From the NCBI RefSeq assembly GCF_012489685.1, contig NC_080042.1, positions 2,730,501 through 2,794,500 of the forward strand: a stretch of DNA of 64,000 nt, written 5' to 3'. The stretch is from Lotus japonicus. Lineage: Eukaryota > Streptophyta > Magnoliopsida > Fabales > Fabaceae. Position numbers and translations under genes: made by a program. The stretch's first letter is position 1, and each line of letters opens with the position of its first letter. Positions 8,796-43,663 of the stretch are shown piece after piece. The notes beneath the pieces are model-generated. The model was not told the origin of the DNA, ran no database searches, and saw only the letters and a program-made list of their open reading frames with translations.

Positions 8796-8876
8796 CTGTA
8801 AAATCAAAAGCAAGATAAAATGAGAATGAATGAATATCTAGCGTAACAAAAGATGATGTAATGAACGAGAGCAATT

Positions 8877-16352: not shown

Positions 16353-16368
16353 ATGTCCTATTCTTTTT

Positions 16369-24600: not shown

Positions 24601-25709
24601 TGAGAGGCTTTTTTGTGGAAGAAAGAAGTATTCTTATCCCCATCCTTTAACCATAGGGCTCTCGATCTCTGGCGCCAATACAACTCTTCCTTAAGCAACA
24701 AACCATTGAAATCCTTCTGAGCAACTTTCTTCTTCTCTAAATTCACAGCTGATGGGGGAAGCTTCTCCAACCTGGCCACTTCCCTCTCCTTTTGCTGAAC
24801 TTGCTGCATCAAATTCCCCTTATCTTTACCAAAGAAGGACATAACCTCTTGTACAGCCTTCACCCTCTCAATGCAGCTCGCACCAGGCCTAAACCAAGCA
24901 TTATTAACAGCCTCATCACACCCCTCTGTTTTGAGCCAGATCTCTTCGAATCTGAAAATTTTTTCCCTTTTATCCTCCAGCTCAGTCCTTCCTAGAACAT
25001 GATTGACAGAGATCACCAAAGCTGAATGATCTGAGCCATACTTTCCTCTGTGCTCAACTGAGACAGAAATAGCAGCATCCAGAAGACATTTACTAACCAA
25101 ACAACGGTCCAGCCTTTCCCTAACATTCTGGTCGCCTTCCCTACCATTGTCCCAAGTAAAAGGGAAACCCGAGAAGCCTGCATCAACGAGCTCACACTCC
25201 TCAATCACTTCTCTGAATTGTCCCATCTGAACCATGTTACCTGGTCTGCCTCCATTCTTCTCATCTAGACCACAGATCAGATTGAAATCACCCACACACA
25301 CCCAGCCACCCCTGCAAGCTTCCTTCAGAGCTCGAATAAGCTCTATGGTCTTATGTTTATTCACATCCTCAGGAAACCCATAGATACCAGAGAAAAACCA
25401 AGTAAAATCCCAGGCATCCACGATCTCAGCACAAATATGATTGATGGAGAACGAAGTTACCCTCACCTCCAAACTATTTCTCCACAGTAAAGCAACACCA
25501 CCTGCCCTGCCCCTACCTCTTTCATCACATCCCACTGCTAAACCATACTCAAACCCAACCTTCTTTTTTGTAGTTTCAAATTCCATTTCTGATTGCTTAG
25601 TCTCCATTAAGAAGACCAATTGGGGATTTTCTTTCTTGATGAGCCTTGACAAGGCTCTCACTGCCAATGGATTCCCCAATCCACGGCAGTTCCACGATAT
25701 GCACCTCAT
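21621..25709 (-). CDS. L1 ORF2: endonuclease / reverse transcriptase / RNase H
   Basis: This 1362-residue protein carries out target-primed reverse transcription of L1 RNA. Residues 1-235 are an APE-type endonuclease (ISWNCRGLGNP, METK, CVGDFNLICGLDEKNGG, SDHSALVI). The central reverse transcriptase has SAFIPGRLITDNALIGMEVF, KLDMSKAYDRIEWEFL, RGLRQGDPLSPYLF and the catalytic FADDSLLF. A zinc-binding RVT domain follows (WKLRIPKKVQHFLFRLLHN, CCPLCQDCLVETASHLFMNC). The C-terminus is an RNase H-like domain (INIDAGWSGKEGTGYGLVVR, AEALCFRWSV, IFSSDCKQLVEAF) with the acidic residues in place. The start ATG overlaps, as ATGA, a stop codon in the frame that continues the ORF1 tail. I see no internal stop, so the enzyme may be functional. 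Confidence 0.95.
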   Translation of the reverse strand: MRCISWNCRGLGNPLAVRALSRLIKKENPQLVFLMETKQSEMEFETTKKKVGFEYGLAVGCDERGRGRAGGVALLWRNSLEVRVTSFSINHICAEIVDAWDFTWFFSGIYGFPEDVNKHKTIELIRALKEACRGGWVCVGDFNLICGLDEKNGGRPGNMVQMGQFREVIEECELVDAGFSGFPFTWDNGREGDQNVRERLDRCLVSKCLLDAAISVSVEHRGKYGSDHSALVISVNHVLGRTELEDKREKIFRFEEIWLKTEGCDEAVNNAWFRPGASCIERVKAVQEVMSFFGKDKGNLMQQVQQKEREVARLEKLPPSAVNLEKKKVAQKDFNGLLLKEELYWRQRSRALWLKDGDKNTSFFHKKASQRQKHNQIKKMKNESGDWVFGDSAVQQVIQSHFQQVFSSSQPQHIQDTCRKVRCELNQKMVDHLGKPFTKEEVKYSIDQMHPLKSPGPDGLPALFYHHFWGLVGGAVTDHVLEVLNHGKGVAEINETFICLIPKVNKPQSPKELRPISLCNVLMKIVTKCIANRLKSILPDLVGETQSAFIPGRLITDNALIGMEVFHAMKKKKTGKKGWMALKLDMSKAYDRIEWEFLKEVLVVMGFPRHVISLILNCVSTVRYAILLNGKPRDWFQPERGLRQGDPLSPYLFILCAEVFAGLIEDQVLMDKMHGISIARAAPRISHLFFADDSLLFMRANLIEAESVLATIQEYEAASGQRVNFEKTELSFSQNVQDTTKIQIRDRMGVTAVEAHDKYLGLPTVIGRSKKRIFLNIQERVSKKLKGWKEKTLSRAGMEILLKSIAQAIPIYIMSCFKISEGVCYAMEAQMANFWWGQQRDERKIHWMRWANLCKPKHSGGLGFRDLKKFNEAILAKQVWRLMHREDSLLFKCLKARYFPRSSIMEASVGFRPSYSWRSICAARDVIRDGLRWRVGNGKSIRVWSDEWIPGQGAGKVLSPVRVLPADARVEDLIDVNTRSWDRTLVENIFHSAEASKILRIPLSWANREDSVFWNFTSSGLFTVKSAYSRLMQLQCLNEVSSSRRKPETNFVWKLRIPKKVQHFLFRLLHNALPCQENLKKRKVELEPCCPLCQDCLVETASHLFMNCDWSRRFWWSSHLALRSGDFADGIEAWIQHLKSALPADDFENFVMMVWGIWRARNDMVFNKVRPESQQILNMALSVRRDWLEHQAVKGTQRHEQASWSPPSEGFLKINIDAGWSGKEGTGYGLVVRNAEGVFQAAATQYVDHRMDPLLAEALCFRWSVQKALDWNLDQLIFSSDCKQLVEAFKSPHSFPILQHIIDDCLSLVPTFTKFDFIFEGRSTNRVAHALAADCHLYPNCSWWGDPPVGILLSLAADSSIS

Positions 25710-25884
25710 TGCTCCTGGTGGGGCTGATCAACAGCCTCCACCTGAATAAAATTGCAAAGCCTTTTACAGCCACTGTTGCCCTCAACTATCACATCAACCA
25801 ACATAGGATCATCACTCATCTCTATCTTCCTTTTGACAGAACTCCCCCTACTCAGAGAATGAGCCACCGCCACACGCTCCCTTG

Positions 25885-27270
25885 TCACTTTTTTCCACTT
25901 TGGCTTTCCACCCTTCTTCTTTGCCCTCCCCCCTTGCTTCCAGACAATAGAACGCTAAGCAAATTTGGAGAGGAACCTCCCACATCAGGCTCACCTTCCT
26001 CTGTCAGAAACTCACCCCCCTTCTTCAGCACCCCCACCTCCTCTACCTTGTTCACCACCTCAGCGGAAATCCCAGACACGGTTACCATAGATTTACCAGC
26101 TATTGGTGTCAAGACAACACCATCAGCCGGGTCATCCTTGTTTTCAATGTTCTCTTTCCCCCTCAACTTCATCAGGCAAGAGCTTCCTCCACCTTCAAGT
26201 CCAGAAGGAGATTTCCTAATTATCTCGGACACCACAGAGCTTTGAATATTCTCAATACTCGCCAGAACATCACCCACTCGTCCCTTCCTTGAGTCCCCCA
26301 CACCCACACCCACCACTTCACCCCCTTGCTTCCCCTGCACTCTTTCCCCAGCTGGCACCAAAGACTTCCTTTGATCCACATTCACCTTCGAGAGGGAAGA
26401 CACAAGAACATCTACCAGCACATTCGGATCCACCTTCTGGGCTACCTTAGACGCAACCCCCTCAGACTTTGGCCCTTCCTCAGCAGCCTCATGAACGCCA
26501 CCAGCGGAGAAAGTACCTCTAACTCCCGATATCACATTAGGTCGCAGATGTGGTGCACGCAGCCACGTACCAAACGGAAAGATCTGAGCACCCTCCTCCT
26601 CCAGATCACCTTCCCAATTATCACAATCTTTCAGAACATGATCTAAACCTCCACATCCATAACAGAAATTGAGCAATCGCTCATACTGGAACCAAACTTT
26701 AATCAAATCCAAACCCGATCTGGCAATCATCTTACCCCTCTTGATAGGAATCCTTGTATCCACACTGGCTCTAACCCTCAGGAAAGAACCCAGGCGATGA
26801 TCATCTGACTTGTCCCACTCAATAAAACCACCGAGAAAATCTCCGATCGATCTAGCGAATGCCTCCGATTTGAGCGCCAGCGGTAGATCCTGAACTCGCA
26901 CCCAGATCGGTACCTTATTAAGAGGCACTTCGGATGGAGCCAACTGCGGATCTAGAACTTGGAGAACCACCAGAAATTTGTCAAAATGCCATGGCCCTTG
27001 TCTCAGCACCCACTCTCTATCCTTCCCATCGAAGAAACGAAAGACAAAGAGATTGCGACCCACATCCCGGACCTCCACACCTCTCTTCACCTTCCAGATC
27101 TGCGCCATCGTGCTCTTGAAGGCCCGAACGTTAAAGCTTCCTTGCGTCAGGAGCTTCCCCGCCAGCCAGAAATCACTCACAGAGTCCAATCCCGAACCAT
27201 CGTCCACCGTCGGAACCAGGAGAGGCTCAGCCTCTTCTCCCTCAAGTATCACACTCTTCCCTCGATCCAT
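25885..27270 (-). CDS. L1 ORF1: DUF4283 / zinc-knuckle RNA-binding protein, probably frameshifted
   Basis: I choose the ATG at 27270 (MDRGKSVILEGEEAEP), where similarity to plant L1 ORF1 starts. The open frame extends 43 codons further upstream into hydrophobic UTR-like text. The N-terminal DUF4283 region (FNVRAFKSTMAQIWKVKRGV, WVLRQGPWHFDKFLVVLQ, PIWVRVQDLPLALKSEAFA) precedes a CCHC knuckle (CYGCGGLDHVLKDC) and a low-complexity tail. The frame stops at 25885. A +1 frame from just upstream stays open to 25706 with a basic tail (KPKWKKVTRERVAVAH) typical of the family. A one-base loss in the six-G run at 25928-25933 would explain this. The protein would coat L1 RNA. Confidence 0.85.
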   Translation of the reverse strand: MDRGKSVILEGEEAEPLLVPTVDDGSGLDSVSDFWLAGKLLTQGSFNVRAFKSTMAQIWKVKRGVEVRDVGRNLFVFRFFDGKDREWVLRQGPWHFDKFLVVLQVLDPQLAPSEVPLNKVPIWVRVQDLPLALKSEAFARSIGDFLGGFIEWDKSDDHRLGSFLRVRASVDTRIPIKRGKMIARSGLDLIKVWFQYERLLNFCYGCGGLDHVLKDCDNWEGDLEEEGAQIFPFGTWLRAPHLRPNVISGVRGTFSAGGVHEAAEEGPKSEGVASKVAQKVDPNVLVDVLVSSLSKVNVDQRKSLVPAGERVQGKQGGEVVGVGVGDSRKGRVGDVLASIENIQSSVVSEIIRKSPSGLEGGGSSCLMKLRGKENIENKDDPADGVVLTPIAGKSMVTVSGISAEVVNKVEEVGVLKKGGEFLTEEGEPDVGGSSPNLLSVLLSGSKGGGQRRRVESQSGKK

Positions 27271-27550
27271 GCTATTTTTGGTATTTTTTGAGATTAGGAA
27301 ATAAAGAGCAAAAAAACTGACACGGAAACAGAAAGCAAACAAAAGAAACCCACACCGGGGTAGGAAAACCAAGATGAGACTTGGAAGAAAGACTCTCACT
27401 ACGTCATCTGCTAGAAACCCTAGCAGAACTCAGAAGGAGAGATAGAGTACACTTTATGGTTTATTCAATATATTGGAACTCTTTTTCCTTTCCATAATGA
27501 GCATTAAAATTTATGAAACAATTTATCTGTCTATCTATTTCCGCGCGCAC

Positions 27551-27554: not shown

Positions 27555-27585
<31 letters not shown>
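27551..27585. repeat. (CA)n(TA)n microsatellite
   Basis: Compound dinucleotide tract directly left of the long-TIR element. Confidence 0.9.
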
Positions 27586-28445
27586 GGGGAATGCTAACTT
27601 ACTCCCACTTGATTTTGTGAAGGAGTAAGTTAGCATCCAACACCTTTTCTTTTGTACAGAACGTGTCCCTCACTTTTTCTTTTTTAAATAGTTGAGTAAT
27701 GGTTTTTGTGTAATTTTGTACAATGCTTGTACTGTTTTCTCTCTCCTTATTAACATCTTCCCTTTCTATGAGATCTTCTCTTTCTCTAATGGCTTCTCTG
27801 ATGGCTTCCATGTTCAACCCTCCACCGGAATCACAACGATGAAGCTGCCAGCAGAGTGGGCGAGGCAGTGGTGGGCGACAGGGATGGTACCGGCGGCGGG
27901 ATGGTGAACTGGCAGAATGGGCTGGATGTTTTTAGTTCCCTTTCTCTTGTCAATAATAATATATTTTGACTTTTCATCTTGTCAACTGGGAGAAGTAAAA
28001 AATGCCCAGACTTTAAAACTGGTTGGGCAAGGTGGGTGTATCATGAATTGGGGAAAACGTCAGAGAGAAGAATGAGAATTTTGAAACCGAAATTGTAGAA
28101 ACCAAATCTGTATTTGCAGAAACAAGAATGAACAGAGGAAGGGGGTTTTACTTTTTGCTAATAAATAAAAATTGATTTGGTTCTTGGAGGAAGAAATTTG
28201 AAAACGGGCAATGAGTTGTTGCAGAGAAGTGGCAGCATTGAAGGAAGAAGTTGAAGATAGAGAAAGGTTGAAGAGAGAGAAAATTTGTGTTTAAAATTAA
28301 ATAAGTTTGATAAACAAAATTACATAAATAACCCCGCTTTAATTGTTTTAAGGAAAGAGATTTGGAGTTTTTGGTCCAAAAGAAAAGGTGTTGGGTGCTA
28401 ACTTACTCCTTCACAAAATCAAGTGGGAGTAAGTTAGCATTCCCC
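27586..28445. mobile_element. Long-TIR MITE in TNL intron
   Basis: Both ends carry an inverted repeat of about 72 bp beginning GGGGAATGCTAACTTACTCC, with only about two mismatches. The interior (860 bp in total) is non-coding. No clean TSD can be assigned because the flanks are TA-rich, so the superfamily is open; the long TIRs suggest a Mutator-like element. The right end is about 42 bp from the NB2 splice donor at 28487. Confidence 0.85.
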
Positions 28446-28487
28446 ATATCCTATATATGTATATCGAAGTATATGAGAAGTTCTTAC

Positions 28488-29599
28488 AGTGTTGCTGGTC
28501 AATGGTCATCACATCAACTACATCATCATGAAACCATAATCGGCTGCGCTCCTCCGGCTGCTCAGGTGGCATCTCACGAATAATCTCTCGTCCCATTACT
28601 TTGAGCAAATCATGCATTTCAAGCTTATTATTCTTGTCAACTTTTACAAGGTTTCGCTCTATGAGGACAGTAATCCCGATTTCTGCATGAAGTCCACATC
28701 CATCTAAAATCTGTGTAACATAGTTTCTGCCCTTCCCTATAAAGAAACAACATATTTCAAGGAATATATCTTTCTCCATTTCATCACTTAAACCATCATA
28801 GCTTAATTTTAATTTCTTCTGTATTTGATCATTGGGAATCAGTTCAAGTTTCGATAATGTACTTTCCCACTCAGCAATTTTCCTTCCAAACAAATAAGAA
28901 CCAAGAACTTCAAGGGTTAGTGGTAGTCTTCCAGAGTAAGCAACAACCCTTCTTGAGAGTTCAAAGAAATCTGCTGTTGGAGCAACTTGCTTAAATGCAT
29001 GCCAACTAAAAAGCTCAAGAGACTCACTTTCATCCATTTCTTGGGTTCTGTATATATGAACCACTTGAAGAACATTGAGTAAATGCTCATCTCTAGTTGT
29101 GATGATTAACCTACTTCCTTGACCAAACCATTCACGACTTCCACACAGAGCATTTAGTTGGTCCAAACTATTTATATCATCAAGTACAACAAGTGCCCTC
29201 TTATGGCAAAGTCTTTCCTTTATTATTGTTTTTCCCAATTCAATGCTATGTAATTTCATCCTTCTAGTTCTCAATATGCCTGAAAGAAGTTGTTCTTGCA
29301 AAGAAACTCGGCCATCATCTTGGTCCCAAGCTTCCCTTATATTTGAAAGGAAGCTTTTACCTTCAAAATTCTGATTAATTTCATTGTAAATGGCTTTGGC
29401 AATGGTTGTTTTACCACTTCCTCCCATTCCCAAGATTCCAACTATGCGAACCTCATTTGATTTACCACTTAATAATTGAATCATGTCCTGCACACTAGAT
29501 TCCACTCCCACTGGGTGATCAGCAACAAGTAAGTATGCGCTGTCGTCTAGTCTTGTGGTAACAGTTTTGAGAATATCACCAATCATCTCGATTTCAGTT
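28488..29599 (-). CDS. TNL NB2 (NB-ARC) exon
   Basis: The exon starts after TATTTGACAG with TEIEMIGDILKTVTTRLDDS. It encodes a complete NB-ARC nucleotide switch: P-loop GMGGSGKTTIAKAIY, kinase-2 RALVVLDDI, RNBS-B GSRLIITTRDEHLL, a GLPL variant SGRLPLTLEVLGSYL, RNBS-D IFLEICCFFIGKG and MHDLLKVMGREIIRE. The domain binds ADP or ATP and drives oligomerisation of the receptor in the cytoplasm. Its 5' splice phase matches the TIR2 exon at 32419-33674. Near the 3' end a 7-bp tandem duplication (TGACCAT/TGACCAG around 28494-28507) shifts the frame before the ACT|GTAAGA donor. Spliced to the next exon it would be out of frame. Confidence 0.9.
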
Positions 29600-30329
29600 C
29601 TGTCAAATACATAAATTACCAATGAGATAAAATAATCATCTATTAGTAATTCTTACTATTAACATTGCCATCAATCAAAAAGGGGAGAGGAATTTAGAGT
29701 AGAACTTTATCAGAAACAAAATAAAAAACTTGAAATTGAATTTAGAAGCAAGTTTTGGTTATATCTTTAGTTTAGGACTAAGTTTACATTCTGCCAATTA
29801 TTTGAACTCTGATCTCTACCGTGATGATGACCCAACTGTTCAGAATACAGGTGGACAATCATAGAGAGGATTCATCAGATATAAACTAGAATAATTAATT
29901 CAGTAGCTTTTATTTTTTATTCAGTAGATGGACACCATACTGGTAACCTCTCATAGACTACTAATGACCATAGTCATCAAATACGCCATAGTCAGAGTAT
30001 ATACTCTAAGTTAGTTTCAGTTAGACTAATTGTACGAAGCTGTTTAGTGTTTGTAAGTCTCTGTTAGTTCACTACAGGCTACACTATAAATATATGTGTC
30101 GTAACTATCTTGACAGTTAAGAAATCAATGATAATAATTCTGTTATTCAGTTACACTTTTTCTCTCTCTCTCTCTCTCCCCCCCCTATAAGGCTACTTTA
30201 ATAATTCTGTTAAGTCTTAACCTTAAGGCTGGTGCTTATTAAGGTTCCACTTCTTTTTCCTCTCCTTTTGATTCATCACATTCTCTAACTCTACCCAATT
30301 TACTTCAGATTCCTGCCATCACAAAAAAT
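29600..30329. other. TNL intron sequence with (TC)n tract
   Basis: AT-rich intron between the NB2 and TIR2 exons. A (TC)n run followed by C-rich sequence lies at 30161-30186. No other feature. Confidence 0.6.
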
Positions 30330-30915
30330 CTAATGACCGTTAGTCGGTTAGCTAGAGATAATTGTGTCTTTTTTGAATTCCATTCTAATGATCGTTTTGT
30401 GCAATCTCAGGTCTCTAAACAGATTCTGCTTTCATGGAAAGGCTGGTCCTGGTGGGCTCTACTATTTTCCAGGTTATTTGTCGCCTTCTTCTACTTTGTC
30501 TTCTTTTTCCTCATTACCCATTGTAAATACATTTTCCACTAATAACTCCTTTTCTATTTGGCCTAATAGACTAGGAAACCCTAGGGGTGATGTTTTGAAG
30601 AATGATCTATCCTTTTGTAATATACACATACCATTTAAATCAATACAAGATTTTTGTTCTGCTTGTCTTGGCAATGCACATAGACAGTCTTCTCATTTGT
30701 CCACTACAGAATGTCATAAACCTCTTGAATTGGTGTTTTGTGACTTGTGGGGTCCTGCCCCTTGCACTTCCAGCAGTGGCTTTACCTATTATTAGTCTTT
30801 TGTTGATGCATACTCTCATTTTACATGGCTATACGCCTATACCTTCTAAAGACAACGTCTGAAACTTTTTCAATTTTTAAACAATTTAAAGCAATGGCTG
30901 ACCTGGAGTTCAATG
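30330..30915 (+). pseudogene. Ty1/copia fragment: GAG-pre-integrase to integrase start
   Basis: Broken frames read GLYYFPGYLSPSSTLSSFSS, FCSACLGNAHRQSSHLSTTE, then LELVFCDLWGPAP and SSGFTYY, the zinc-binding and first catalytic segment of a copia integrase. It lies antisense to the TNL in its intron. Confidence 0.8.
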
Positions 30916-30924
30916 CTAAAATAA

Positions 30925-31095
30925 GTCCCACATTGGCTAGTGATTTTGCATAGATAGCCTTTATAACGGGTAGAGAAACCCTCAACTCTTGAGCTAGCTT
31001 TTAGGTTGAGTCAGAACCTATCCTAGATTTGTTTGTTGGTGTAGACCTCCCTTATTTGGGCCACCACGCAGATGTCCAGTCCTACACACTTTCCT
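30925..31095 (+). mobile_element. TRIM-like remnant
   Basis: GTCCCACATTGGCTAG, CCTCAACTCTTGAGCTAGCTT and the following CTATCCTAGATTTG match the LTR and internal region of the TRIM at 44078-44430 in inverted orientation. Only one LTR and part of the interior remain, inside the copia debris. Confidence 0.65.
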
Positions 31096-31099
31096 CTCC

Positions 31100-31565
31100 C
31101 CAGCAGCTCCTAGCACGTTCACTGACATTTCAGCTTCTTCTGGAACATAACAGATTCTTATGGGAAATGGTCAGGTACTCCCAATTCAGTCCATAGGTTT
31201 TACATCCATACTTTCTACTTTTAACACAAATACTTTTTTAATTCTTAAAAACTTTTACTTGTTCCTTCCTTATGCCTTGTTAAATCACAAGACACTTCTG
31301 AAATTTTACTCCAAGGAAGTGTTAGTGATGATGGTTTATACTCATTTGATGGGAAGCTTTCTTCTCCTTCTCAATGTGCAGTTTCTGCTTCCACTACTCA
31401 TCCATCTTCTTTTTCTACTTCTTTGAACTCTTCTGTACATACTACTTATAAGGACTCTGAATCTTATATTGGAAATTCTATCTATGATTAGTGGCATTGC
31501 AGATTAGGGCACCCTCATCATGAGGTTCTTAAGCAAGTTCTATCTCAATGTAATGCCTCATTATC
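31100..31565 (+). pseudogene. Ty1/copia fragment: region upstream of integrase
   Basis: MGNGQVLPIQSIGFTSILST and LGHPHHEVLKQVLSQCNA (after WHCR) are copia protease-to-GAG-pre-integrase motifs, with several frameshifts. This region should precede the piece at 30330-30915, so the copia debris is rearranged or comes from two copies. Confidence 0.75.
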
Positions 31566-32418
31566 TACGGAAAGCATAGTATGGGCTAAAGCCGAGCCCC
31601 ATGATTGGTATGGAAGGTACACCCAGATTATGGTATCATACTCTCTCTAAAAAACATTTACTATGAAAAACTAACACTTCTTATGATTATGGTATCTCTG
31701 TTTTTATTGTTTTGAATCTGTATAATATAAATACATGAAACAATTCACATTATAGTCTCATATATGATATATCTCTCTCCTTACCTTTCCTCAATGCTCT
31801 ACTCTCTCATGCAACTTGTTACATTCTTTGAGGAATCTGACTCCTTTATTTTTTCTAAGAATCCTGTTGTGTATGAGATTCTCCTTGTTCGTTAGTTCCT
31901 TTAGTTGGTCCTTCTAATAAAATGAAGCCTTTTCTCACCTTACGCAAATATATCAGAATTTCTTGTGAGCATATGCACCTATTAATCAATTCCTATTGTA
32001 GAACTTTTAACTACATGATGCTACCTATGTTGCTATTTGTAAAGATATTTCCTTCAAGTCTAATCGTTAACAATCAACATGTTTAAATGATTTCAGATAC
32101 CATTGTTTGTCTTCCCTATATTTTGTCATTTTGCTCTTATTTGTACTGCTTATACTACAAATGATACACAACCCATCTCATGTGGCGATAGACAATTGAA
32201 GCTGGTTCTTATGTTCATTTAAAACTCTATCATAAGGTGACATTGAATCAAAAATAAAATTGGCCTCAATAGAAAAATTGATTGATTGTCTAACAGCATG
32301 ATTTGTGGAAAAAAACAACAATCTTAAATATTAGTTGGACTATGGTGATGCATTCTCACATGTTTAAAAGAGTACTTTTGTTTGCCTCTTTCTACAAATG
32401 AAAGAAAATATTGATTAC
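31566..32418. other. TNL intron sequence
   Basis: AT-rich, no coding signal seen. It ends at the TIR2 exon donor. Confidence 0.5.
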
Positions 32419-33674
32419 CTGTAATTATTTAGATTCCACCCAGACAAGTTTGCAGCTTCAGTGAGTGCTCTTTTCCATCTGTTAATCATATATCTCGAAG
32501 CTGAGCTTCTCTGCACAAGTCCTTCCAGTGCTTTTCCAAAAGATCCAATTTGGTTGCGTACTTCTGATGGTTCCACACCGTAGAATACAGGTAGAACTTC
32601 TTGACCAATAGCTCTATGACACTCCATGATTTTCTCCAGCTCTTGTAGGCACCATATTGAATTTGCATAGTGTTCTGAAAAAATGATTATAGAAACCCTA
32701 GAGTCTTCAATTTCTTGCAACAATGAGGATGAGATATTTTCTCCCCTTTTAAGTTTGTCATCCATATAAACCTCAATACCTGCATTTCGTAAAGTGGCAT
32801 ACAGATGAGAAGTGAAAGATCTGCGAGTGTCTTGACCTCGGAAGCTCAGGAACACATTATGGATCCATTTGGACTTTGGCTTTAAATGATTCAATTCTTT
32901 TCCCATCTCTTGTACCAAATCATGCATGTCAAACTTGTTATACTGGTCAACTTTTAGAAGGCCTCGTTGAATGAGTGTACTTATCCCAGTTTCTGCAGCA
33001 AGTCCACTTCCATTTAATAATTGTGTTATATTGTGTCTGTCCATTCCCATATAGAAACAAGCTATTTCAATGAATATTTTTTTCTCATTATCATCAAGAA
33101 AATCATAGCTCAGTTTTAGTATATTTAGCACCACATTACTTCGACTTCTTTTAAGTAGCTTCAGTATACTTTTCCATTCTGATGCTGTTCTGTCAAGTAA
33201 CAACGAGCCCAACACTTCGAGAGCTAGTGGCAGTCCTCCACAGTAAGAAATTGCCTTTATTGAGAGTTTAATCAAATCATCGGTAGGACTATATTGCTTA
33301 AATGTAAGCCAACTAAAAAGCTCAAGTGACTTACTTGTGTCCATTCCCTTCATTTCATATACAACGTTCCATTCAAAGAGATCAAATACTTTCTTTTCTC
33401 TGGCTGTAATCATTATTATACTCCCAACACCAAGACTTCCACGACTTCCAAATAATGATGATATCAGTTGGTCTGTGTTACTCACATCATCAAGTACTAC
33501 AAGTACCCTTTTATGAGCTAATATTTTCTTCATTTCCGTGTTGTGAACTGTTGATGTCATGTCTGTGGTACTATTGATGTCAGAAAGAAGTTGTTTTCGT
33601 AGATAATATTCACCATTATCCTGCTTCCATACATCCTTAATATTCACCATTATCCTGCTTCCATACATCCTTAA
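32419..33674 (-). CDS. TNL exon encoding partial NB1 fused to TIR2
   Basis: One uninterrupted exon encodes the C-terminal part of a first NB-ARC, then a complete second TIR domain. NB1 has kinase-2 RVLVVLDDVSN, RNBS-B GSIIMITAREKK, GLPL CGGLPLALEVLGSLLL, IFIEIACFYMGM and FDMHDLVQEMGKEL. TIR2 (from 32867) runs KWIHNVFLSFRGQDTRRSF, KLKRGENISSSLLQEIEDSR, SIWCLQELEKIMECHRAIGQ and PVFYGVEPSEVRNQIGSFGK. The Glu of CLQEL, catalytic in plant TIR NADases, is present. The exon ends LSGWNLNNY-AG|GTAATC, and its phase fits the NB2 exon. The P-loop half of NB1 is lost at a junction with transposon-like sequence at 33674. A TIR-NB-TIR-NB-LRR layout is known in legumes (from memory). Confidence 0.9.
33607..33674. 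repeat. 34-bp tandem duplication at the truncated NB1 end
   Basis: Two identical 34-bp units (33607-33640 and 33641-33674, each beginning TATTCACCATTATCC) duplicate the codons for the NIKDVWKQDN region at the TNL/transposon junction. Confidence 0.95.
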
Positions 33675-34015
33675 GGTTGCCAGCACAAAGGGAACAACAA
33701 ATTACCCTCCCCATCCAAAAACAGATACACGCCGTCCTTCACACAACCTATCCTGAAGAAATTTTCTTTAAATTCCTTTTATGACCCTAAGAAAGGCATT
33801 AGCAGTCTCTTCGTTCTAATACCCTGAACAGAAACCTGAGATATGTACTTCCCAAGACTCACATTAAAAAAAGAAAAGAAGGGAGCCACGGTGGGCTCAA
33901 TACCCATATGTCTACTATTAGGATGAAGTTGGGAGGGAGCGACGTTCAAAATTCTCAAAATCTCACATTCGAGTGAGGAAAGAGGGGAGCGGACTGATAA
34001 GGTCAAATTTACCAT
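33675..34015 (-). pseudogene. Putative gypsy-type transposon protein fragment (PF04195-like)
   Basis: The minus frame reads LECEILRILNVAPSQLHPNS, FFSFFNVSLGKYISQVSVQG, a stop, then KEFKENFFRIGCVKDGVYLF and GNLLFPLCWQP. This resembles the plant 'putative gypsy type transposon' domain. It directly replaces the missing P-loop half of NB1. The family assignment is from memory of motif order and is moderate. Confidence 0.55.
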
Positions 34016-34511
34016 GTTTTCTATTAATCTTTAGGCAATTATCCTTTGTATCTACGAGAAAATTCTTGTAAATTGACTCTTTTTTGGTTTGAATGAGTAG
34101 AATTGTGAAATTTGATATAGAATGTGTTTTATACATGATTCCAATCTCAATTTGAGTTGTAGAGATGAAGATTTGAGAGGAAAATGTTTGTACAAGAAGC
34201 TTAGAAATGAAAAAACTTGTTTAGCCTCTCAAAAACCCGCTCAACACCTTAAAAGTATGAAAGGAGAGCTTGAATATGCCAAAAACACGCTAAGCGCCTA
34301 GAATGGGGCGCTTACTTGTCCAGATCTGATTCTTATAAAATGTGAATATCAGTCAAAGAAAGGGATATATCACGCAAAACAGAAAGAAAAAAGCTCAAAG
34401 GAGAGCAAGGAAAGAAGAAGTTCTATGGTTCCAAAAGCTTCCATCGACCTGGAGGCATGCCGAGGACGGCACGGAATTGGCAATTCTTCTCAGTTCTCTT
34501 AGTAAGCTATC
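34016..34511. other. Retroelement-flank sequence
   Basis: No gene. The text around 34200-34511 and 39264-39330 was continuous before the copia insertion and looks like non-coding retroelement sequence. Confidence 0.4.
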
Positions 34512-34739
34512 TGTCAATGAGGATATCTGCAATTAATGATTGTTTCCTATTTTATGTTTGAGAAATTAGGAAATAGAATCAAGAATATTCCTATTTGAAT
34601 GTACAGAATTAGACTTCCTAATTTAGGTTGTGCAAATTAGGAATTAGGGTTAATTAGTCATTATTGCTTGTAAATGTAATTGTATTATATATAGAAGAGA
34701 ATAGAATCAGAGAAGGCATCAAGCCAATTATTCTTGACA
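34512..34739 (+). repeat. Copia 5' LTR
   Basis: 228 bp. It contains a TATA-like TATTATATATAG near 34684-34695 likely to drive element transcription. Confidence 0.95.
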
Positions 34740-35024
34740 TGGTATCACGAGTCTTCTCACTTCTCTTGTGCCGTTTCCTTGTGTGCTAAGAGCGACACGC
34801 TCTTGCTTCTCCTATCCGTATCAACATCGTGCCTCCTTCGTGGTTCATCTTGGCTCTCTGGTTCGTTGCTCTGATTCTGGTTCGTGTTGTGCTGTTGTAG
34901 CCCATCCTGGTTCGTTGCTTTTATTCCTGGTTCGCTGCTCTGTTTCTTTTCTTGCTGTTCTGTTTCTGGAACGTTGCTGTTTTTTTTGTGCTATCTTGTT
35001 TCTGGTCAGTTTGCTTTGCTCCTC

Positions 35025-35825
35025 ATGGCTTCCGAAAAGACTTTTGAAAACTTCTGTGTCCGCTTTACGGGCAAAAATTATGGCGCTTGGGAGTTTCAGT
35101 TCCAAATGTTCGTGAAAGGGAAAGGCCTTTGGGACGATCATGTAGCTCAGTCCACTGCTCCGGCAGAGAAAACGACATTGGCGGCGTGGCAAACAAAGGA
35201 CGCCCAAGTTATAACCTGGATTCTGGCTTCTGTTGAACCTCACATGATCAATAACTTACGTGCTTTCTCTACTGCTAAAGATATGTGGGACTATCTGAAG
35301 CGTATTTACAATCAGGACAATGTTGCCAAACGGTTCCAGTTGGAGCTCGACATTGCTAACTATCGTCAGGGAAATCTCTCTATCCAGGACTATTACTCCG
35401 GGTTCCTTACTCTTTGGGCTGATCATTCAGCTATCTTACACGCTGATGTTTCTAAAGATTCACTCACTGCTGTCCAAAAAGTTTATCAGATTAGCCAACG
35501 GGACCAATTTCTCATGAAGCTTCGACCTGAATTTGAAGCTGTGCGTGCTGCTTTGCTGAACAGGAATCCAGCCCCTTCCTTGGACGTGTGTCTTGCAGAA
35601 TTACTTCGAGAAGAGCAGCGTCTTCTGACCTTATCCCGTGATGACTTTGTTGCTGATCCTGTCTCTGTTGCCTACGCTGCCCAAAGTAAAGGCAAAGGTC
35701 GTGATATGCGCCAAGTTCAATGCTTTTCTTGCAAGCAATTTGGTCATCTTGCTCGGAATTGCAGTAAGAAATTTTGCAACTATTGTAAGCAACAGGGTCA
35801 CATCCTCGCAGATTGCCCAACTTGA
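35025..35825 (+). CDS. Copia Gag
   Basis: I choose the ATG at 35025 (MASEKTFENFCVRFTGKNYG). The upstream open frame is leader-like hydrophobic text. The capsid part (LDDKNYG-like start, WDYLKRIYNQDNVAKRFQLE, DYYSGFLTLWADHSAI) is the UBN2/retrotran_gag family. The C-terminus has two zinc knuckles, CFSCKQFGHLARNC and CNYCKQQGHILADC. The frame ends in a single TGA at 35823-35825, and the same frame then stays open through Pol. Gag assembles virus-like particles carrying the element RNA. Confidence 0.93.
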   Translation: MASEKTFENFCVRFTGKNYGAWEFQFQMFVKGKGLWDDHVAQSTAPAEKTTLAAWQTKDAQVITWILASVEPHMINNLRAFSTAKDMWDYLKRIYNQDNVAKRFQLELDIANYRQGNLSIQDYYSGFLTLWADHSAILHADVSKDSLTAVQKVYQISQRDQFLMKLRPEFEAVRAALLNRNPAPSLDVCLAELLREEQRLLTLSRDDFVADPVSVAYAAQSKGKGRDMRQVQCFSCKQFGHLARNCSKKFCNYCKQQGHILADCPT

Positions 35826-38800
35826 CCCCCGCGGAAGCCGTTGCATGCCTTACACGCCACTACAACTTCTCTGGACCAGACTTCTGCTCCTACAACTTCT
35901 AGTGCTGCTTCCTTGACTCCCGAGGCCGTACAACAAATGGTACTCGCAGCTCTTTCTGCCTTGGGCCTTCAAGGTAAGTCCAAACCTACATCTCAACCTT
36001 GGTTTGTTGATTCTGGGGCCTTTAACCACATGACTGGTTCCCTTGAAAAATTGCACAATGTTCACACTTATCATGGCACCCAAAATATCCAAATTGCTGA
36101 TGGTAATACTCTTTCTATTTCTGTTGTTGGAGACATCAATTCCTCCTTTCGAGATGTGTTTGTTTCCCCAGGGCTTGTTTCCAATTTGATTTCCGTTGGA
36201 CAATTGGTCGATAACAATTGTAATGTTAATTTCTCTCGTGATGGTTGTTCTGTGCAGGATCAGGCGTCGGGGAAAGTGATCGCGAGGGGGCCTAAAGTGG
36301 GCAGACTATTTCCTCTCCAGTTTTCTCTGTCGAATATTTTGTCTTTTGCTTGTAATGGTGTCCCAAATAAGTATGAGGACTGGCATAGAAAATTGGGTCA
36401 CCCAAACTCAGTTGTTTTAGCTCATTTATTGAAATCTGGATTGTTGAGTAATAAAATTGTTATTCCTAATTCTGCATTTGATTGTTCTGTGTGCAAACTT
36501 GCTAAAAGCAAGACTCTTCCCTTTCCCTCTATAGCTCATTGTGCCAATAAATGTTTTGATCTTATTCATAGTGATGTTTGGGGTATGTCACCGGTCTTGT
36601 CTCATGCAAAGTATAAATACTTTGTAACCTTTATTGATGACTATAGCCGGTTTACATGGATCTATTTTCTCCGCTCTAAATCTGATGTCTTTTGTATGTT
36701 TAAACAGTTTTTGGCATATATAGAGACTCAGTTTGACACAGGTATCAAGGTTTTGCGTACTGATTCTGGTGGGGAATATATTTCTCACAACTTTCAAGAG
36801 TACTTGCGGCAGAAGGGGATTCTTTCACAACGTTCTTGTCCATATACGCCGCAGCAAAATGGCGTTGCAGAACGCAAAAATCGGCACTTGCTTGATGTTA
36901 CCCGAACATTACTGCTTCAAGCCTCTGTTCCTTCTCAATTCTGGGTTGAAGCTTTGTCTGCGGCTGTATACTTGATCAACCGCCTCCCATCTCAGGTTTT
37001 GGCTTTTGATTCTCCTTTCTTTCGTCTCTATAACACACAGCCAAGTTATGATGACCTTCACACGTTTGGGTGTGTCTGCTTTGTTCACTTGCCACCTCTA
37101 GAGCGTCATAAACTCGGCGCGCAATCTGTGCAATGTGCCTTTATGGGTTATTCTCCTAATCAAAAGGGATTTTTGTGTTATGATGTCATTGCTCAACGCA
37201 TGCGCATTTCTAGAAATGTGGTTTTCTTTGATTATCAATATTATTTTCCATGTTTTCCTTCTGATTCTAACAGTTTTGTTCCTCTTCATACCTTTGCTGA
37301 TGTTCCTCGTCCTATAGAACGTTTTAAACCTGGACAGGTGTATACTAGACGACCTCCTACTTTGCCCCCTCCCGATGCTGATCCTCCGCCTGAACCAGCA
37401 CCAGTTACACTGCGTCGATCCACTCGCCTGCATCGAACACCTGATAGGTATGGATGGGAGCCTACTTCTCTTACTGCTACTTTATCTAGTATCCCTATTC
37501 CCACATGTTATTCGCAGGCTGTTAAGGACATGCGTTGGGTAAAGGCCGTGCAAGATGAGCTACAAGCACTTCAGGAGAATTTCACTTGGGACATAGTCCC
37601 TTGCCCTCTTGGTGTTAAACCCATTGGTTGCAAATGGGTGTACTCTGTGAAGTTAAATTCTGATGGTTATCTCAATCGTTATAAGGCCCGGTTGGTTGCT
37701 TTGGGTAACAAACAAGAATACGGGGTGGATTATGATGAGACCTTTGCACCTGTGGCAAAGATGACCACTGTCCGCACAATCCTTTCTATTGCTGCCTCTA
37801 AAGGTTGGTCCCTATATCAAATGGATGTGAAGAATGCATTTCTTCATGGTGATTTAGCAGAAGATATTTTTATGAAACCTCCTCCAGGCTTGTTTTCTTC
37901 CTCTAAAGGCGTGTGCAAACTCAAGCGTTCTTTATATGGCTTGCGGCAGGCTCCTCGGGCATGGTTTGAGAAATTTCGGTCTACCCTTCTTGGATTCTCT
38001 TTTTCTCAGAGCCAATATGATTCCTCCTTATTCATTCATCACACGTCCGCTGGTATTGTTCTTCTTCTCATTTATGTTGATGACATGATCATTACTGGCT
38101 CTGATCAAGCGTCCATACAACTACTTAAACAGCAGCTTCAAGCTTCCTTTCACATGAAGGATCTTGGGTATCTTCACTATTTCTTGGGGCTTGAGGTTCA
38201 TTCTGACTCCAAAGGTATTTTTCTCAATCAGCACAAGTATACTGAGGACTTAGTTTCTTTGGCTGGTCTTCAATCTGCTGTCCCTGTGGATACTCCTCTT
38301 GAAGTTAATGTCAAATATCATCGTGATGAGGGTGAACTTTTGCCTGATCCTTTATTGTATCGTCAATTGGTGGGAAGTCTTAACTATTTGACTATTACAC
38401 GTCCAGATATTTCCTTTGTAGTACAACAAGTTAGTCAATTCATGCACACTCCTCGTCATCTTCACTTGGCTGCTGTTCGTCGCATCATTCGCTATTTGAA
38501 AGGAACTTCTTATCAAGGATTATTTTTTCCGGCCAGTACATCTCTTACTTTGCTTGCCTATAGTGATGCTGATTGGGCAGGTTGTGCTGATACACAAAGG
38601 TCGGTGTCCGGTTGGTGCATGTTCCTTGGTCCGGCCTTAATTTCTTGGAAGAGCAAAAAGCAAGCCCGCGTTTCCAAGTCATCCACTGAGTCTGAATATC
38701 GAGCTATGTCCACTGCTTGCTCTGAAATAACTTGGCTTCGTGGTTTATTGGCTGAACTCGGATTCCCTCAAATCAATGCTACGCCTCTCCATGCTGACAA

Positions 38801-39044
38801 CACAAGCGCTATTCAGATTGCTACTAATCCAGTTTTTCATGAGCGCACTAAGCATATTGAAGTGGATTGTCACTCCATTCGTGAGGCTCTTGATGATCAT
38901 GTTATCTCTCTTCCTCATGTCTCCTCGCAGCTTCAGCTTGCAGATATCTTCACTAAAGCGGTTCCTCGTGCCCGTCACCAGTTTCTTCTTAGAAAATTGA
39001 TGCTTCTTGACAAACCGCATCAATTTGAGGGGGGATGTCAATGA
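35826..39044 (+). CDS. Copia Pol: protease, integrase, RT, RNase H
   Basis: The frame is continuous with Gag except for one UGA. Order: protease WFVDSGAFNHMTGS; GAG-pre-integrase WHRKLGHPNSVVLAHLLKSG with CSVCKLAKS; integrase LIHSDVWG, VLRTDSGGEYIS and QNGVAERKNRHLLD (D,D,E); reverse transcriptase KWVYSVKLNSDG, YQMDVKNAFLHGDL, LYGLRQAPRAWFEKF and YVDDMIITGSD; RNase H AYSDADWAGCADTQRSVSG, STESEYRAMS, HADNTSAIQIA and KHIEVDCHSIREAL. No other stop is seen. There is no good ATG at the start, so expression would need readthrough of the UGA or loss of that stop. Confidence 0.94.
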   Translation, partial: PPRKPLHALHATTTSLDQTSAPTTSSAASLTPEAVQQMVLAALSALGLQGKSKPTSQPWFVDSGAFNHMTGSLEKLHNVHTYHGTQNIQIADGNTLSISVVGDINSSFRDVFVSPGLVSNLISVGQLVDNNCNVNFSRDGCSVQDQASGKVIARGPKVGRLFPLQFSLSNILSFACNGVPNKYEDWHRKLGHPNSVVLAHLLKSGLLSNKIVIPNSAFDCSVCKLAKSKTLPFPSIAHCANKCFDLIHSDVWGMSPVLSHAKYKYFVTFIDDYSRFTWIYFLRSKSDVFCMFKQFLAYIETQFDTGIKVLRTDSGGEYISHNFQEYLRQKGILSQRSCPYTPQQNGVAERKNRHLLDVTRTLLLQASVPSQFWVEALSAAVYLINRLPSQVLAFDSPFFRLYNTQPSYDDLHTFGCVCFVHLPPLERHKLGAQSVQCAFMGYSPNQKGFLCYDVIAQRMRISRNVVFFDYQYYFPCFPSDSNSFVPLHTFADVPRPIERFKPGQVYTRRPPTLPPPDADPPPEPAPVTLRRSTRLHRTPDRYGWEPTSLTATLSSIPIPTCYSQAVKDMRWVKAVQDELQALQENFTWDIVPCPLGVKPIGCKWVYSVKLNSDGYLNRYKARLVALGNKQEYGVDYDETFAPVAKMTTVRTILSIAASKGWSLYQMDVKNAFLHGDLAEDIFMKPPPGLFSSSKGVCKLKRSLYGLRQAPRAWFEKFRSTLLGFSFSQSQYDSSLFIHHTSAGIVLLLIYVDDMIITGSDQASIQLLKQQLQASFHMKDLGYLHYFLGLEVHSDSKGIFLNQHKYTEDLVSLAGLQSAVPVDTPLEVNVKYHRDEGELLPDPLLYRQLVGSLNYLTITRPDISFVVQQVSQFMHTPRHLHLAAVRRIIRYLKGTSYQGLFFPASTSLTLLAYSDADWAGCADTQRSVSGWCMFLGPALISWKSKKQARVSKSSTESEYRAMSTACSEITWLRGLLAELGFPQINATPLHADNTSAIQIATNPVFHERTKHIEVDCHSIREALDDHVISLPHVSSQLQLADIFTKAVPRARHQFLLRKLMLLDKPHQFEGGCQ

Positions 39045-39263
39045 GGATATCTGCAATTAATGATTGTTTCCTATTTTATGTTTGAGAAATTAGGAAATAG
39101 AATCAAGAATATTCCTATTTGAATGTACAGAATTAGACTTCCTAATTTAGGTTGTGCAAATTAGGAATTAGGGTTAATTAGTCATTATTGCTTGTAAATG
39201 TAATTGTATTATATATAGAAGAGAATAGAATCAGAGAAGGCATCAAGCCAATTATTCTTGACA
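39036..39263 (+). repeat. Copia 3' LTR
   Basis: Identical to the 5' LTR. The Pol stop codon lies just inside its 5' edge. Confidence 0.95.
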
Positions 39264-39680
39264 CTATCTAGCATCTATGTCAATGGATAACTAAGCTTTT
39301 CTTTGGTGGGATTGAGGGTAATACTTCGCTTTAATGTATTCATCTTAGTACTTACATATATGGATCTATTTTATCTCTTGATTCCAATGATATGATCTTG
39401 TTCTTAATGCTTATTTTAGCTTGATCAACTAAAACTTGATTTGAGATTTGATGTGTGATTGAAAACTACATATTTGAATTGGATTTAAGTTGTATTATCT
39501 AATAATTCTAATTTATAGACATAGAGTTAGGTTTGTTAGTCGTTGAACATCTGAACCTATTACGTTTTGCTTTGTTAGTTATGCGAGACATCGACAATTA
39601 GGAAAGTGAACCGTTTATCTACTCATGTAAGAAATTAATGAGTAAATAAGAACTGGTGTGATGAAATCAAGAATAGAATA

Positions 39681-39903
39681 GGTCCTATGTGTTGAACTAT
39701 AGGATACACGAGAGTTGATGTGTGAACCCTAACAGGTTTCTCAATTTGTTTTAAATTCTGTTTTATTCTTGCTTGTTTTACTTTTTCATGAGTTATTGAT
39801 CAATCATCAAAATAACAAACAATCTTGGAATCCATTGTTTAAGTAATTTTTCTAAAGTACGACGTTGTGTTTTCAATTCCCTGTAGACGATAAAAACCCT
39901 TTA
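39681..39903 (+). repeat. Direct repeat unit 1 (about 225 bp)
   Basis: Matches 40297-40530 with moderate divergence. Shared text includes ATGTGTTGAACTATAG, GAGAGTTGATGTGTGAACC and GTTGTGTTTTCAATTCCCTG. It looks like ends of old LTRs or a local duplication. No coding capacity. Confidence 0.85.
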
Positions 39904-40296
39904 CTATACTACAATCGAAATACAAAAACATTGCTTTAGTTGGTTAACTAGAGAAATTGTGAATATAGTATATAGTTTTCTTATCTGTGATTATCTTGTC
40001 TACGGACTTTCTTGGCTAGGTTGTATTCTCACTTTGTGTATGTGAGGTAAAACTTCAGCTCATCAACTATTGTTCGATTCCGAGATCGAAGCTACAGTTA
40101 GGAGAAACAACAAGACAAAGAAGAGGAAACAGTTAGCTAAGCAAAGAAAGGAGCAAGAAACATCATCTTCTTTAATCTCTTCGGAAAACCAAGAACATGA
40201 CAAGAATTGCTAAACCTGCAGGAAATAAAAGGACGTGAAGTCGGGTTGGTGCGGTTGATGTATGCCAATCTGTTTGCAGGTTTGGATCATATAATA

Positions 40297-40530
40297 GGTC
40301 ATATGTGTTGAACTATAGAATACATGAGAGTTGATGTGTGAACCCTAATCTCAATAGTTTTCTCAATCTGTTTTAAATTCATTTTTACTCTTGCTTGTTT
40401 TAATTTTTCATTTGTTATTGATCGGTAATCAAAACAACACTCAAACAATCTTGGAATCCATTGCTTAAGTAATTTTGTTAAAGAGCGGCGTTGTGTTTTC
40501 AATTCCCTGTGGGCGATTAAAAACCTTAGC
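40297..40530 (+). repeat. Direct repeat unit 2
   Basis: Partner of 39681-39903, same orientation, about 390 bp downstream. Confidence 0.85.
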
Positions 40531-42360
40531 TATACTACAATTGAGTTTTGAGGAATTCAAAAGTTAGAATAGTAAAAAAAAACTCTCATCACGGACCCCC
40601 AGTTTGGATAACAAGGTATGGTGCGAGGAATCGCGATAACTACGCTTTCATCCTCGCTACTTAAACTATACGACCTGCTAAAATTAGCCACACTCTATGC
40701 AGGTTCATACACCGACATGAAGTTCTCATCCCTTCTCGCGATAGATGAATAACCCTCCAGAATGGAAGAGGTGATTTCCCCTTGAACACTCTCAACTATC
40801 AAGCTATATTTTTGTTAATAACTACAATGATGGAGATTAGAGTCCACCTTACTATTGGAAATTCAGAGAATAGAGAGAGCGATTAAGAGAGGGAGAGGAT
40901 AGGGAAGTTGTATTATTATTATTTAATATCTAAAAGATTACAAAACATGTTGTGCCGTCATAGAATTTGGACTGGATGGTCAGGTCCCTACCGGAAGGCT
41001 AGGCTATCCTTTGAAGATTTGGTTGGACAGGTGAAGTCTGGGCCTACATGCTAGAAGACTAATGTAAAAGCTCACTTAACTACGAAGACATTCAACCACA
41101 AATGAGGAAGCAAACCCACCGCTAATCACGCGCTTGGTCAAAGTTCATGACTCCTGCTGACCAACACAGCCTAGCACCAAGTCAGACGACCATGTGATAA
41201 AGTGTGTCCATGATGGACGGGATTGGACCGCAGTCAACCGACATTATAATGATTACGCTCCATTGTCGGGCATGATTGGTCCACTGTAATGAATATGTCA
41301 ATTAGGGTTTGGAGGTCGACCTGCTATAAAAGGAAGACCTCCGCCCTTCTATGAGATCATCTTTTACCTACTGAAATAACACTCTAAGTCTTTTACTCAT
41401 ATGTTTAGCTCTTAGGGTTTATATCACAACACATGTCCTTTATAGAATACCACTAACAAACTAATCTAAACCTACTTAACTTGTAAGTTAAATAACCTTG
41501 ACTAATTATCTAATCTGATATCTCTAATATTTAATCTTATACCTCTAACTTACAAAACAGATATTTGAATTATATTCTAAACACTTACGCGCGGGGACAA
41601 AGGGAAAGATTTCATCGCTCAAAGAAGAGGTTAACGACGAACAAGAGCCTCTCAAGAAATTGGAATCCGAAGATTCCTGAGCAATATTGGGAAGATTAGA
41701 AACCCTAAACAATTCATTATAACATAGAAGAAACGGAAAAGAAAACTTACCGACAAGAAGAAGCGATGAAGAAATCCGCTGATAGCAAAATCTTCAAAAG
41801 ATCTCAATAATCAAGAAGTTGGCGAACAAAGAGAGGAAATCAAGGAAAGAGTTGAATCGTCAATCCCCTCTTTTAAAACCAAAACCCCTTTATATTGTAT
41901 ATTTTCCCGTCCACACTATTAAGCTTACCAAACACATCAAACACAAATGGGTTACCCGCTAAAAGCCAATAAGCGTAGGTTTAAGGGATTGGAGGGTTGT
42001 GTGTCTACCGAGCTATTGTCGGTAGTAGCCCAGCCTAAATGTTGACCTTCACAGGAGACTCCATTAATTGGGTAGCCCAACCCTAAAAGATGTTCAGCAT
42101 GAGCGAACCAGAGGTGTGTGAAACACGGGATTAAATAGTCGTCTGTAACCCTCATATCTATAATCAATCAGTATGCTATTAATTGACTAATATACCACAT
42201 AACATAACTCTAAAACATAAAGTCCAAAAGGTAATATTAACCCTACAAAGCCTAAAGACAACAAACCTCATGCATTTTCATTGTAACTCTAATCATGGGA
42301 GCTAAGTTGTGTGTTTGTCACAATATCTAACCCTAAAGTTTTGGGGAGAACACTTTTTAA
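40531..42360. other. Intergenic, with an LTR-like stretch at about 40975-41430
   Basis: No gene seen. Positions 41325-41420 hold CTATAAAAGGAAGACCTCC followed by a short leader, resembling the promoter and R region of a retrotransposon LTR. No coding region accompanies it. The rest is unassigned AT-rich sequence. Confidence 0.4.
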
Positions 42361-43181
42361 GGCTTAAATATGTTTGAGGTCTCTGACTGTGTAAGAGAAA
42401 TCAAATTGGGTCCTTGGAAAAAAAATTCTTTTAAATGTTATCTTTGAGAAAATTTGTAATCAAACGTGTCATCAATTTGGACCAATCAACCGTCCACTTA
42501 GCGAGCCTGGTCAGCTGAGGTGACACGTGGACTTTTTCTTATCAGGTTTAGTCCATAAAAATATTTTAATCACACATAATCCTTTATCTTCCCTTAAAAA
42601 AATTAATCTTTTTCCTCTTTCACCTTCATCTTGTTCTTCCTTCTTTAAATTCATCAAAATTGACGTGAGACTAACACCAAATATTAATCCCTTTCATGAA
42701 TATTAATATGTTAAAGTAATCCCTTTCATGAATATCTATATGTTAAAGTTAGTGATTTAGGAATCGAAAGAACATTTAAACCCTACAATCTGATTCATCA
42801 CTTTACAGATTTCTGAATTTTTGTCTATTGATTTCAGCATTTTTTTTAATCAAAACGTTAGTGAGTTTTTTTATTTGAGGGTTTTGATCTAGGTAAAATT
42901 TAAGGTAGAAGATGGGAGAAGAGAATGAAGGTAAAAGAGGAAGAAGATGAAAGTTTTTTTTTTTTGAAAGGGGCATGGAGGATTAGATGTGATTAAAATA
43001 ATTTTAAGGGACTAAAACTGATTAAAAAAATGTCTGCGTGGTCACCTCAACTGACTAGACTTGCTACATAGATGGTTGACAGGTCAAAATTGATGACACG
43101 TATGCATAAGACTTAATTTGATTAACAATGACTCAATTTGATTCCTGTTACAAAGTGAGAGATCTCAAACATATGCAGGGA
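42361..43181. mobile_element. Long-TIR MITE (Mutator-like) abutting TIR1
   Basis: The left arm from 42361 (GGCTTAAATATGTTTGAGGTC) is inverted at the right end (reverse complement CATATGTTTGAGATCTC from about 43176). The inverted similarity extends about 200 bp, including GTGTCATCAATTT and GAGGTGAC. The right terminus lacks the outermost bases and no TSD is evident. It ends a few bases from the TIR1 frame. Confidence 0.75.
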
Positions 43182-43186
43182 CAGAT

Positions 43187-43663
43187 TCATGTGTAACAAC
43201 AAAGGCTGAGAATTAGGATCAGGAACGGGAAGCAACGGTGAAAGGAAGCAACTTCAAACAGGGCCCTTCTCCAAGTCAGAACGGTGTCTTCATCCACCGA
43301 TGTTTTCTTGAGCATTCGTTGAAACTCTTCTCCAAACCTCCCTTTTTGCATGCGCACATCCCACAAATCAACACCAAAGAATACGGGGAAAACCACTTGA
43401 CCCGTGGCTCTGTGGCACTCCATGATCTTTTCCAGCACCTCCAGACACTCCCTAGAACCACCGTAGTACTCGGCGAAAACAACGACGGAAACCCTTGACC
43501 ATTCGATTTCTCGCCGCAGCGAATTCCAATTCACACTCCGAATCGCGTCTTTGTTGTCGAAGCAGGTTGGGATTCCGGACGATGTTAGGTGATTGTGGAG
43601 AATGGAAACGAAAGGCTCCACCCCAACGTCCTCCAAAGTGAAGCTTATGAAAACTCGGCCCAT
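43187..43663 (-). pseudogene. Isolated TIR-domain exon (TIR1)
   Basis: The 158-residue frame MGRVFISFTLEDVGVEPFVS, then SVNWNSLRREIEWSRVSVVV, SRECLEVLEKIMECHRATGQ and VFPVFFGVDLWDVRMQKGRF is a TIR domain, the usual first exon of a TNL. It is on the same strand as NB1-TIR2 and 9.5 kb upstream, so it may be its original N-terminus. The RGED-type motif is degenerate (FTLEDVG). The position of the catalytic Glu (CLxEL) is Val76 (CLEVL). The usual exon end (AANLSGW) is missing; after SFHRCF the frame runs into non-TNL text. It is either a decayed exon or a catalytically dead TIR-only frame. Confidence 0.8.

Follow-up and report, generated by a model that had tools for sequence, protein, structure and literature searches.

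The closest described systems are plant resistance receptors of the TIR-NB-TIR-NB-LRR (TNTNL) class. Both RPP2A and RPP2B of Arabidopsis are needed for resistance (PMC4246468), RPP2A (At4g19500) being described as a resistance TNTNL that needs RPP2B in two further papers (PMC2175511, PMC3782705). Arabidopsis has two recorded TNTNL genes, RPP2A among them (PMC2175511, PMC4008172), and TNTNL genes are also recorded in Medicago (PMC3782705). RPP2A is likened here to our locus by class description. The cotton receptor GhRVD1, studied as a TIR-TIR-NB-LRR protein (PMC12856790), also has two TIR domains per receptor but no NB-ARC between them. The canonical TNLs RPP1, Roq1 and RUN1 match in sequence over the TIR, NB-ARC and winged-helix domains; unlike TNTNL proteins, they carry one module per chain. 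None of the titles and abstracts found in the literature covered, outside which most subscription papers lie, concerned the legume NB1-TIR2 junction.

The locus described here lies in a window of 64,000 nucleotides of the Lotus japonicus genome (contig NC_080042.1). It is a broken copy of this already known kind of gene. Its domain order is that of the Lotus japonicus RUN1-like isoform X2 (P0001, 1481 aa) and of P0004 and P0007, a group with the same 24-residue type of junction and 61-90% identity by domain, and the same order is found in long proteins of Gastrolobium and Crotalaria. P0001 has a P-loop in NB1, the catalytic Glu in TIR1 and continuous LRR and post-LRR regions, whereas the window copy is without these. 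We regard it as very probable that the locus as a whole is the decayed remnant of a TNTNL gene of one legume subgroup.

Architecture of the locus

Two TIR and two NB-ARC domains follow each other on the minus strand in the order T-N-T-N, the first NB-ARC being incomplete. In Pfam profile searches, the ORF 33701-32418 matched NB-ARC (E 3e-19, profile positions 76-247 of 248), WHD_ROQ1 (E 4.5e-19) and TIR (E 1.3e-46). No stop separates these domains, and the original prediction of an NB1 running straight into a full TIR2 within one exon is thereby borne out. NB1 (32883..33656) has the kinase-2, GLPL and MHD motifs, as had been claimed; it is not a full domain, however, its P-loop being absent and the profile match beginning only at position 76. 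TIR2 (32419..32861) is complete and ends at a phase-2 donor. It keeps the catalytic Glu in the column of RUN1 E100 (WCLQEL), as expected of a plant TIR NADase, and is a predicted enzyme. The NB2 exon (28488..29599; NB-ARC E 1.8e-27) carries P-loop, kinase-2 and MHD motifs and ends in phase 1. The predicted in-frame joining of TIR2 to NB2 also held: the donor at 32419 (ACAG|GTAATC) and the acceptor at 29599 (TGACAG|AACTG) are canonical, and NB2 is read in frame across the junction. P0001 aligns with the NB1-TIR2 stretch at 83% identity over 415 columns, so the arrangement is not due to chance. By domain, identity to P0001 is 81% for NB1 (203/252 columns), 87% for TIR2 (124/142) and 90% for NB2 (290/322).

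TIR1 was found upstream on the same strand, as anticipated (ORF 43693-43187, TIR E 1.8e-29). The TIR1 exon (43247..43663) has no recognisable 3′ end. It has diverged more than any other part, with 61% identity to the TIR1 of P0001 (84/137 columns). The codon at 43438-43436 is GTG, placing Val at the position of the catalytic Glu. When aligned with RUN1, the catalytic column (that of E100) holds Glu in 6o0w, Ala in 7s2z (titled E100A) and Val in the window TIR1.

The 5′ end of NB1 is ragged. An exon start at 33674 had been proposed, yet this base is preceded by CC instead of AG, and an exact 34-bp tandem duplication begins with it (33607..33674, minus strand; copies from 33674 and 33640). A splice acceptor at this position is thus ruled out. 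The interval 33651-33900 contains 18 possible AG acceptors, so another exon start is possible, but none of them would supply a P-loop. In the alignment of P0001 to the window, residues 193-245 (about 53, including the P-loop) were matched by NB2 alone. Five P-loop queries taken from relatives all found NB2, which served as a positive control, and none found an NB1 P-loop in 33600-43300. Their other matches were the known NB1 start, the duplicated 34-bp copy and the end of TIR1, together with a weak alignment of the P0002 query at 33728-33600 (E 2e-4) which passes through a stop codon and is taken as chance. The idea that a P-loop exon lies hidden in the stretch from TIR1 to NB1 was abandoned, the search having returned only known parts and this single weak match.

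The path predicted from NB2 to 20756 turned out to be out of frame. The linker exon before the LRR (20475..20756, minus strand, placed by P0001 alignment and frame) needs phase 0 and NB2 ends in phase 1; the join reads ...TIDQQHCNKSCQGSGF (NKSCQGSGF, then stop). In P0001 three residues (NNT) stand between VVDMMT and ATIAVKG; in the window, 16 bases are found there ahead of the NB2 donor. If the Lotus splice site is the same, the frame was thus lost where NB2 ends. The first LRR exon (20101..20397, minus strand; Pfam and P0001 alignment) is truncated: its match to P0001 ends at 20101, where the frame enters other sequence and reaches a stop. At this end the opposite strand carries sequence resembling a reverse transcriptase (ORF 19780-20142, RVT_1 in Pfam). 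NB2 was therefore not found in frame with a full LRR.

Transposable elements separate these parts. A complete Copia LTR retrotransposon (34512..39263, plus strand; Pfam, LTRs and target duplication) lies between TIR1 and NB1 and is young, since its 228-bp LTRs are identical and the CTATC target duplication flanks it on both sides. Just upstream of the NB1 remnant is a weakly matched gypsy-type fragment (33782..34030, minus strand; PF04195, E 6.3e-05, below the gathering score). Within the intron after NB2, self-comparison revealed an inverted-repeat pair of 87-91 bp (92.3%) enclosing an 890-bp stretch (27571..28464, unstranded), which begins 24 bases into the intron and looks like a small DNA transposon. 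The same intron holds a LINE retrotransposon with two long ORFs (21621..27429, minus strand; ORFs and Pfam).

Legume relatives with the same junction

The original prediction had suggested looking among legume proteomes for an NB-ARC followed directly by a TIR, and such proteins were found. A homology search found 2877 proteins, of which the best 120 were analysed; because the NB1-TIR2 stretch was scored within a longer query, the search favours proteins with NB then TIR. NB preceded TIR in 113 of the best 120, and in 98 the gap was at most 30 residues. Judged by name, 97 of these 98 short-junction proteins come from legumes, several species contributing many proteins each, and the remaining one from Quillaja saponaria, likewise in the Fabales. 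The distance from MHD to the start of TIR2 was 23-30 residues in 94 of the 98; the other four gave -8 (an alignment artefact), 33, 42 and 44. In the window NB1 leads directly into TIR2 with a spacing of 24, and its subgroup shows 23-25 in all 14 proteins and exactly 24 in 12 of them. Other subgroups have their own values: 27 in 7/7 of a Medicago-Trifolium-Vicia set, 28 in 9/11 of another set and 29-33 in 5/5 of an Acacia and Neltuma set. An MHD motif running into a TIR is usual in legume proteins of this class and not special to the window gene. One annotated protein, P0006 of Stylosanthes scabra (1847 residues), contains three TIR-NB modules in a row.

A second search, with an elm protein as query (best 120 of 6428), added 96 further proteins. 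NB preceded TIR in 75 of them, and the 23-30 spacing occurred in only 4 of the 75, all four legumes by name. Three further short rows (Nymphaea 32, Gossypium 1, Phaseolus -5) reflect NB matches that stop short of the MHD motif. The breakpoint lies further downstream in apple (45), Lycium (64) and Linum (71), and also in elm and Capsicum. As both searches are ranked lists, short junctions may also exist outside the Fabales.

The common breakpoint had suggested a single old fusion for all short-junction proteins, an idea contradicted by the NB tree and by the AU test. The NB tree comprised 127 rows: 47 of 77 NB1/NB2 pairs, 31 other NB domains and the two from the window. On this tree the NB1 state needs 8 changes, at least 6 of which are forced by starred branches. 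With a 60-row subset, the AU test rejected a single NB1 clade (log-likelihood 413.6 lower, p 2.3e-61). In the TIR tree, of 146 rows but few columns, both TIR1 (8 changes) and TIR2 (9 changes) are split. In some cases, for example the Medicago-Trifolium-Vicia set with spacing 27 and one Acacia protein, NB1 groups with the NB2 of its own proteins. Rejection of one NB1 clade across legumes implies that the fusion arose repeatedly or that modules were exchanged; these trees would fit either several fusions at almost identical points or a single fusion with later module exchange.

The window domains have clear neighbours. NB1 falls within a 15-row NB1 set (SH-aLRT 97) and NB2 within a 15-row NB2 set (93); with one other row, both form a 31-row set (90) drawn from Lotus, Gastrolobium, Crotalaria, Acacia, Neltuma and Prosopis. 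TIR1 and four further TIR1s make up a five-row set (99), the nearest by path being those of P0001, P0007, P0002 and P0003. The nearest to TIR2 is the TIR2 of P0001, outside any starred set. Together with domain order and identity to P0001, the placement of NB1 and NB2 upholds the TNTNL ancestry that had been proposed.

Differing conservation of modules 1 and 2

The W, RG, SH, P-loop and MHD motifs have recognised roles in TIR/NB-ARC receptors. To compare the modules, 45 well-covered blocks were used out of 67 complete four-domain blocks, 22 being dropped. In TIR2 the catalytic Glu is kept in all 45, the W in 44, RG in 43 and SH in 39; the corresponding counts in TIR1 are 41, 14, 5 and 3. Among all short-junction proteins that have a TIR ahead of NB1, irrespective of coverage, the TIR1 Glu is seen in 55 of 71. 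Mean pairwise identity over the 45 blocks is 0.38 for TIR1, 0.45 for NB1, 0.59 for TIR2 and 0.63 for NB2. In random disjoint pairs, which are not independent phylogenetically, TIR1 was less identical than TIR2 in 98.6% and NB1 less than NB2 in 99.2%. The third MHD residue is D in 28/94 NB1 and 56/94 NB2 domains. The NB1 P-loop reads GK in 82/98 proteins and GTTT in 2/98, with no residue aligned in 14/98. Retention of the TIR1 Glu in 41/45 and of most NB1 P-loops indicates that module 1 is relaxed but not free, which argues against its being dead.

NB1 reads MHV in 15 of the 98 proteins, a change that is autoactivating when made in other receptors. These natural MHV domains are found in P0037, P0054, P0059, P0060, P0063, P0066, P0067 and P0069, and further in P0075, P0078, P0079, P0080, P0083, P0087 and P0098.

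On sequence grounds, the relatives are asymmetric, with a diverged TIR1-NB1 and a canonical TIR2-NB2. We infer from this conservation that TIR2-NB2-LRR would be their working receptor: the LRR and post-LRR regions would most likely sense, NB2 would act as the nucleotide switch and TIR2 as the NADase, while the diverged TIR1-NB1 module at the N terminus may have a modifying role. The intra-chain regulatory role raised in the original prediction found its only support in this unequal conservation. An AlphaFold2 model of Lotus P0007 (37 sequences) reached pLDDT 77.3 and pTM 0.48; given this pTM, its domain placement was not used. The best structural matches of the model were RPP1, followed by Roq1 and WRR4A.

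Taken jointly, these observations allow a broader reading, which we put forward as speculative and rather unlikely. Repeatedly in legumes, the winged helix of a first module would have become joined to a second TIR-NB-LRR module, at a spacing nearly constant per lineage. Module 1 would then have drifted, TIR1 losing the RG loop and SH surface, and NB1 keeping its P-loop while often losing the MHD aspartate, with MHV in some proteins. It would now serve as a built-in partner, set and not switched, that pairs with TIR2 or restrains it in cis. If so, the present locus, with a broken module 1 and LRR beside a TIR2-NB2 that remains open, would offer a natural experiment to tell whether module 1 acts as a brake or is needed as a partner. 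The locus itself carries little weight, being another decayed resistance gene in a transposon-rich cluster. Its relatives matter more, for their recurring fusion, lineage-constant spacing and one diverged beside one canonical module; they offer natural material for asking why two TIRs are present in a receptor, and whether TIR1 serves as a decoy, a cis partner or a brake.

A relic or a shortened protein

A TIR-NB unit would have undergone duplication in the ancestor of the subgroup, and the first exon of the downstream TIR-NB-LRR copy would have become joined to the upstream copy immediately behind the winged helix of the latter; this would account for NB1 and TIR2 sharing one exon at nearly fixed spacing. 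The window copy has lost the TIR1-NB1 joint together with the P-loop, shows a frameshift before the LRR and a truncated LRR, and carries transposon insertions, changes that make a full receptor unlikely. Lacking two defining features, the NB1 P-loop and a continuous LRR, it is probably a relic and not a working member. The working receptor originally envisaged is not upheld, the Val at the catalytic position of TIR1 adding to these defects. That missing pieces of an intact, complete receptor sit in unrecognised exons is very improbable: TIR2, NB2 and the canonical splice sites between them are intact, but the five queries that all found NB2 gave no P-loop in 33600-43300, the linker exon does not continue the frame of NB2 and the LRR is truncated. 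Still less credence, in fact next to none, attaches to NB1 and TIR2 having been joined at this locus only, by local deletion or assembly error. The neighbourhood is indeed full of duplications and insertions; nevertheless, equal junction and spacing occur in Lotus, Gastrolobium, Crotalaria and other proteins, and the 98 short-gap proteins among the best 120 matches run counter to a local deletion with no intact relative.

The best argument against a relic is the open frame of 781 codons from the first in-frame ATG of the NB1 remnant (33650) to the end of NB2, which old neutral decay does not favour and which leaves room for a shortened protein. Moreover, a cryptic acceptor or donor could restore the frame, AG dinucleotides being present near 33674. 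Transcription starting near NB1 could at most yield a predicted protein of 791 residues, its frame stopping 10 residues into the next exon. This product, a P-loop-less NB1 fragment with TIR2 and NB2 and without the LRR, might act like a truncated TIR-NB adaptor or decoy. The motifs kept in TIR2 and NB2 would suit such a protein, as would P0013, P0020 and P0021, which are annotated from inside NB1 after the P-loop, although these starts may be annotation artefacts. However, the flanks are transposon-like and recent decay explains the open frame equally well, and we consider a shortened working protein, adaptor or decoy included, improbable beside the relic.

Self-comparison and P0001 alignment also revealed a second copy of the linker, LRR and post-LRR region (6667..8799, minus strand), with a frame change and a stop in its linker exon and an LRR frame change near 7804. 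Its stretch 8139-9015 is 92.9% identical to 20101-20970. More widely, 1113-3430 with 8139-9015 and 15556-19993 with 20101-20970 form colinear stretches of 88-96% identity. These two blocks are a segmental duplication, in which fragments of retroelements accompany the gene's LRR end. Elsewhere in the window, the ORF 50221-52539 (minus strand) encodes a PPR protein of 772 residues, best matched among the matches listed by Sesbania bispinosa (82%). A short frame at 57449-57787 (minus strand), with no Pfam match at 0.01, repeats HWxFGYNYSDW-like words which we take to resemble plant phytocyanins.
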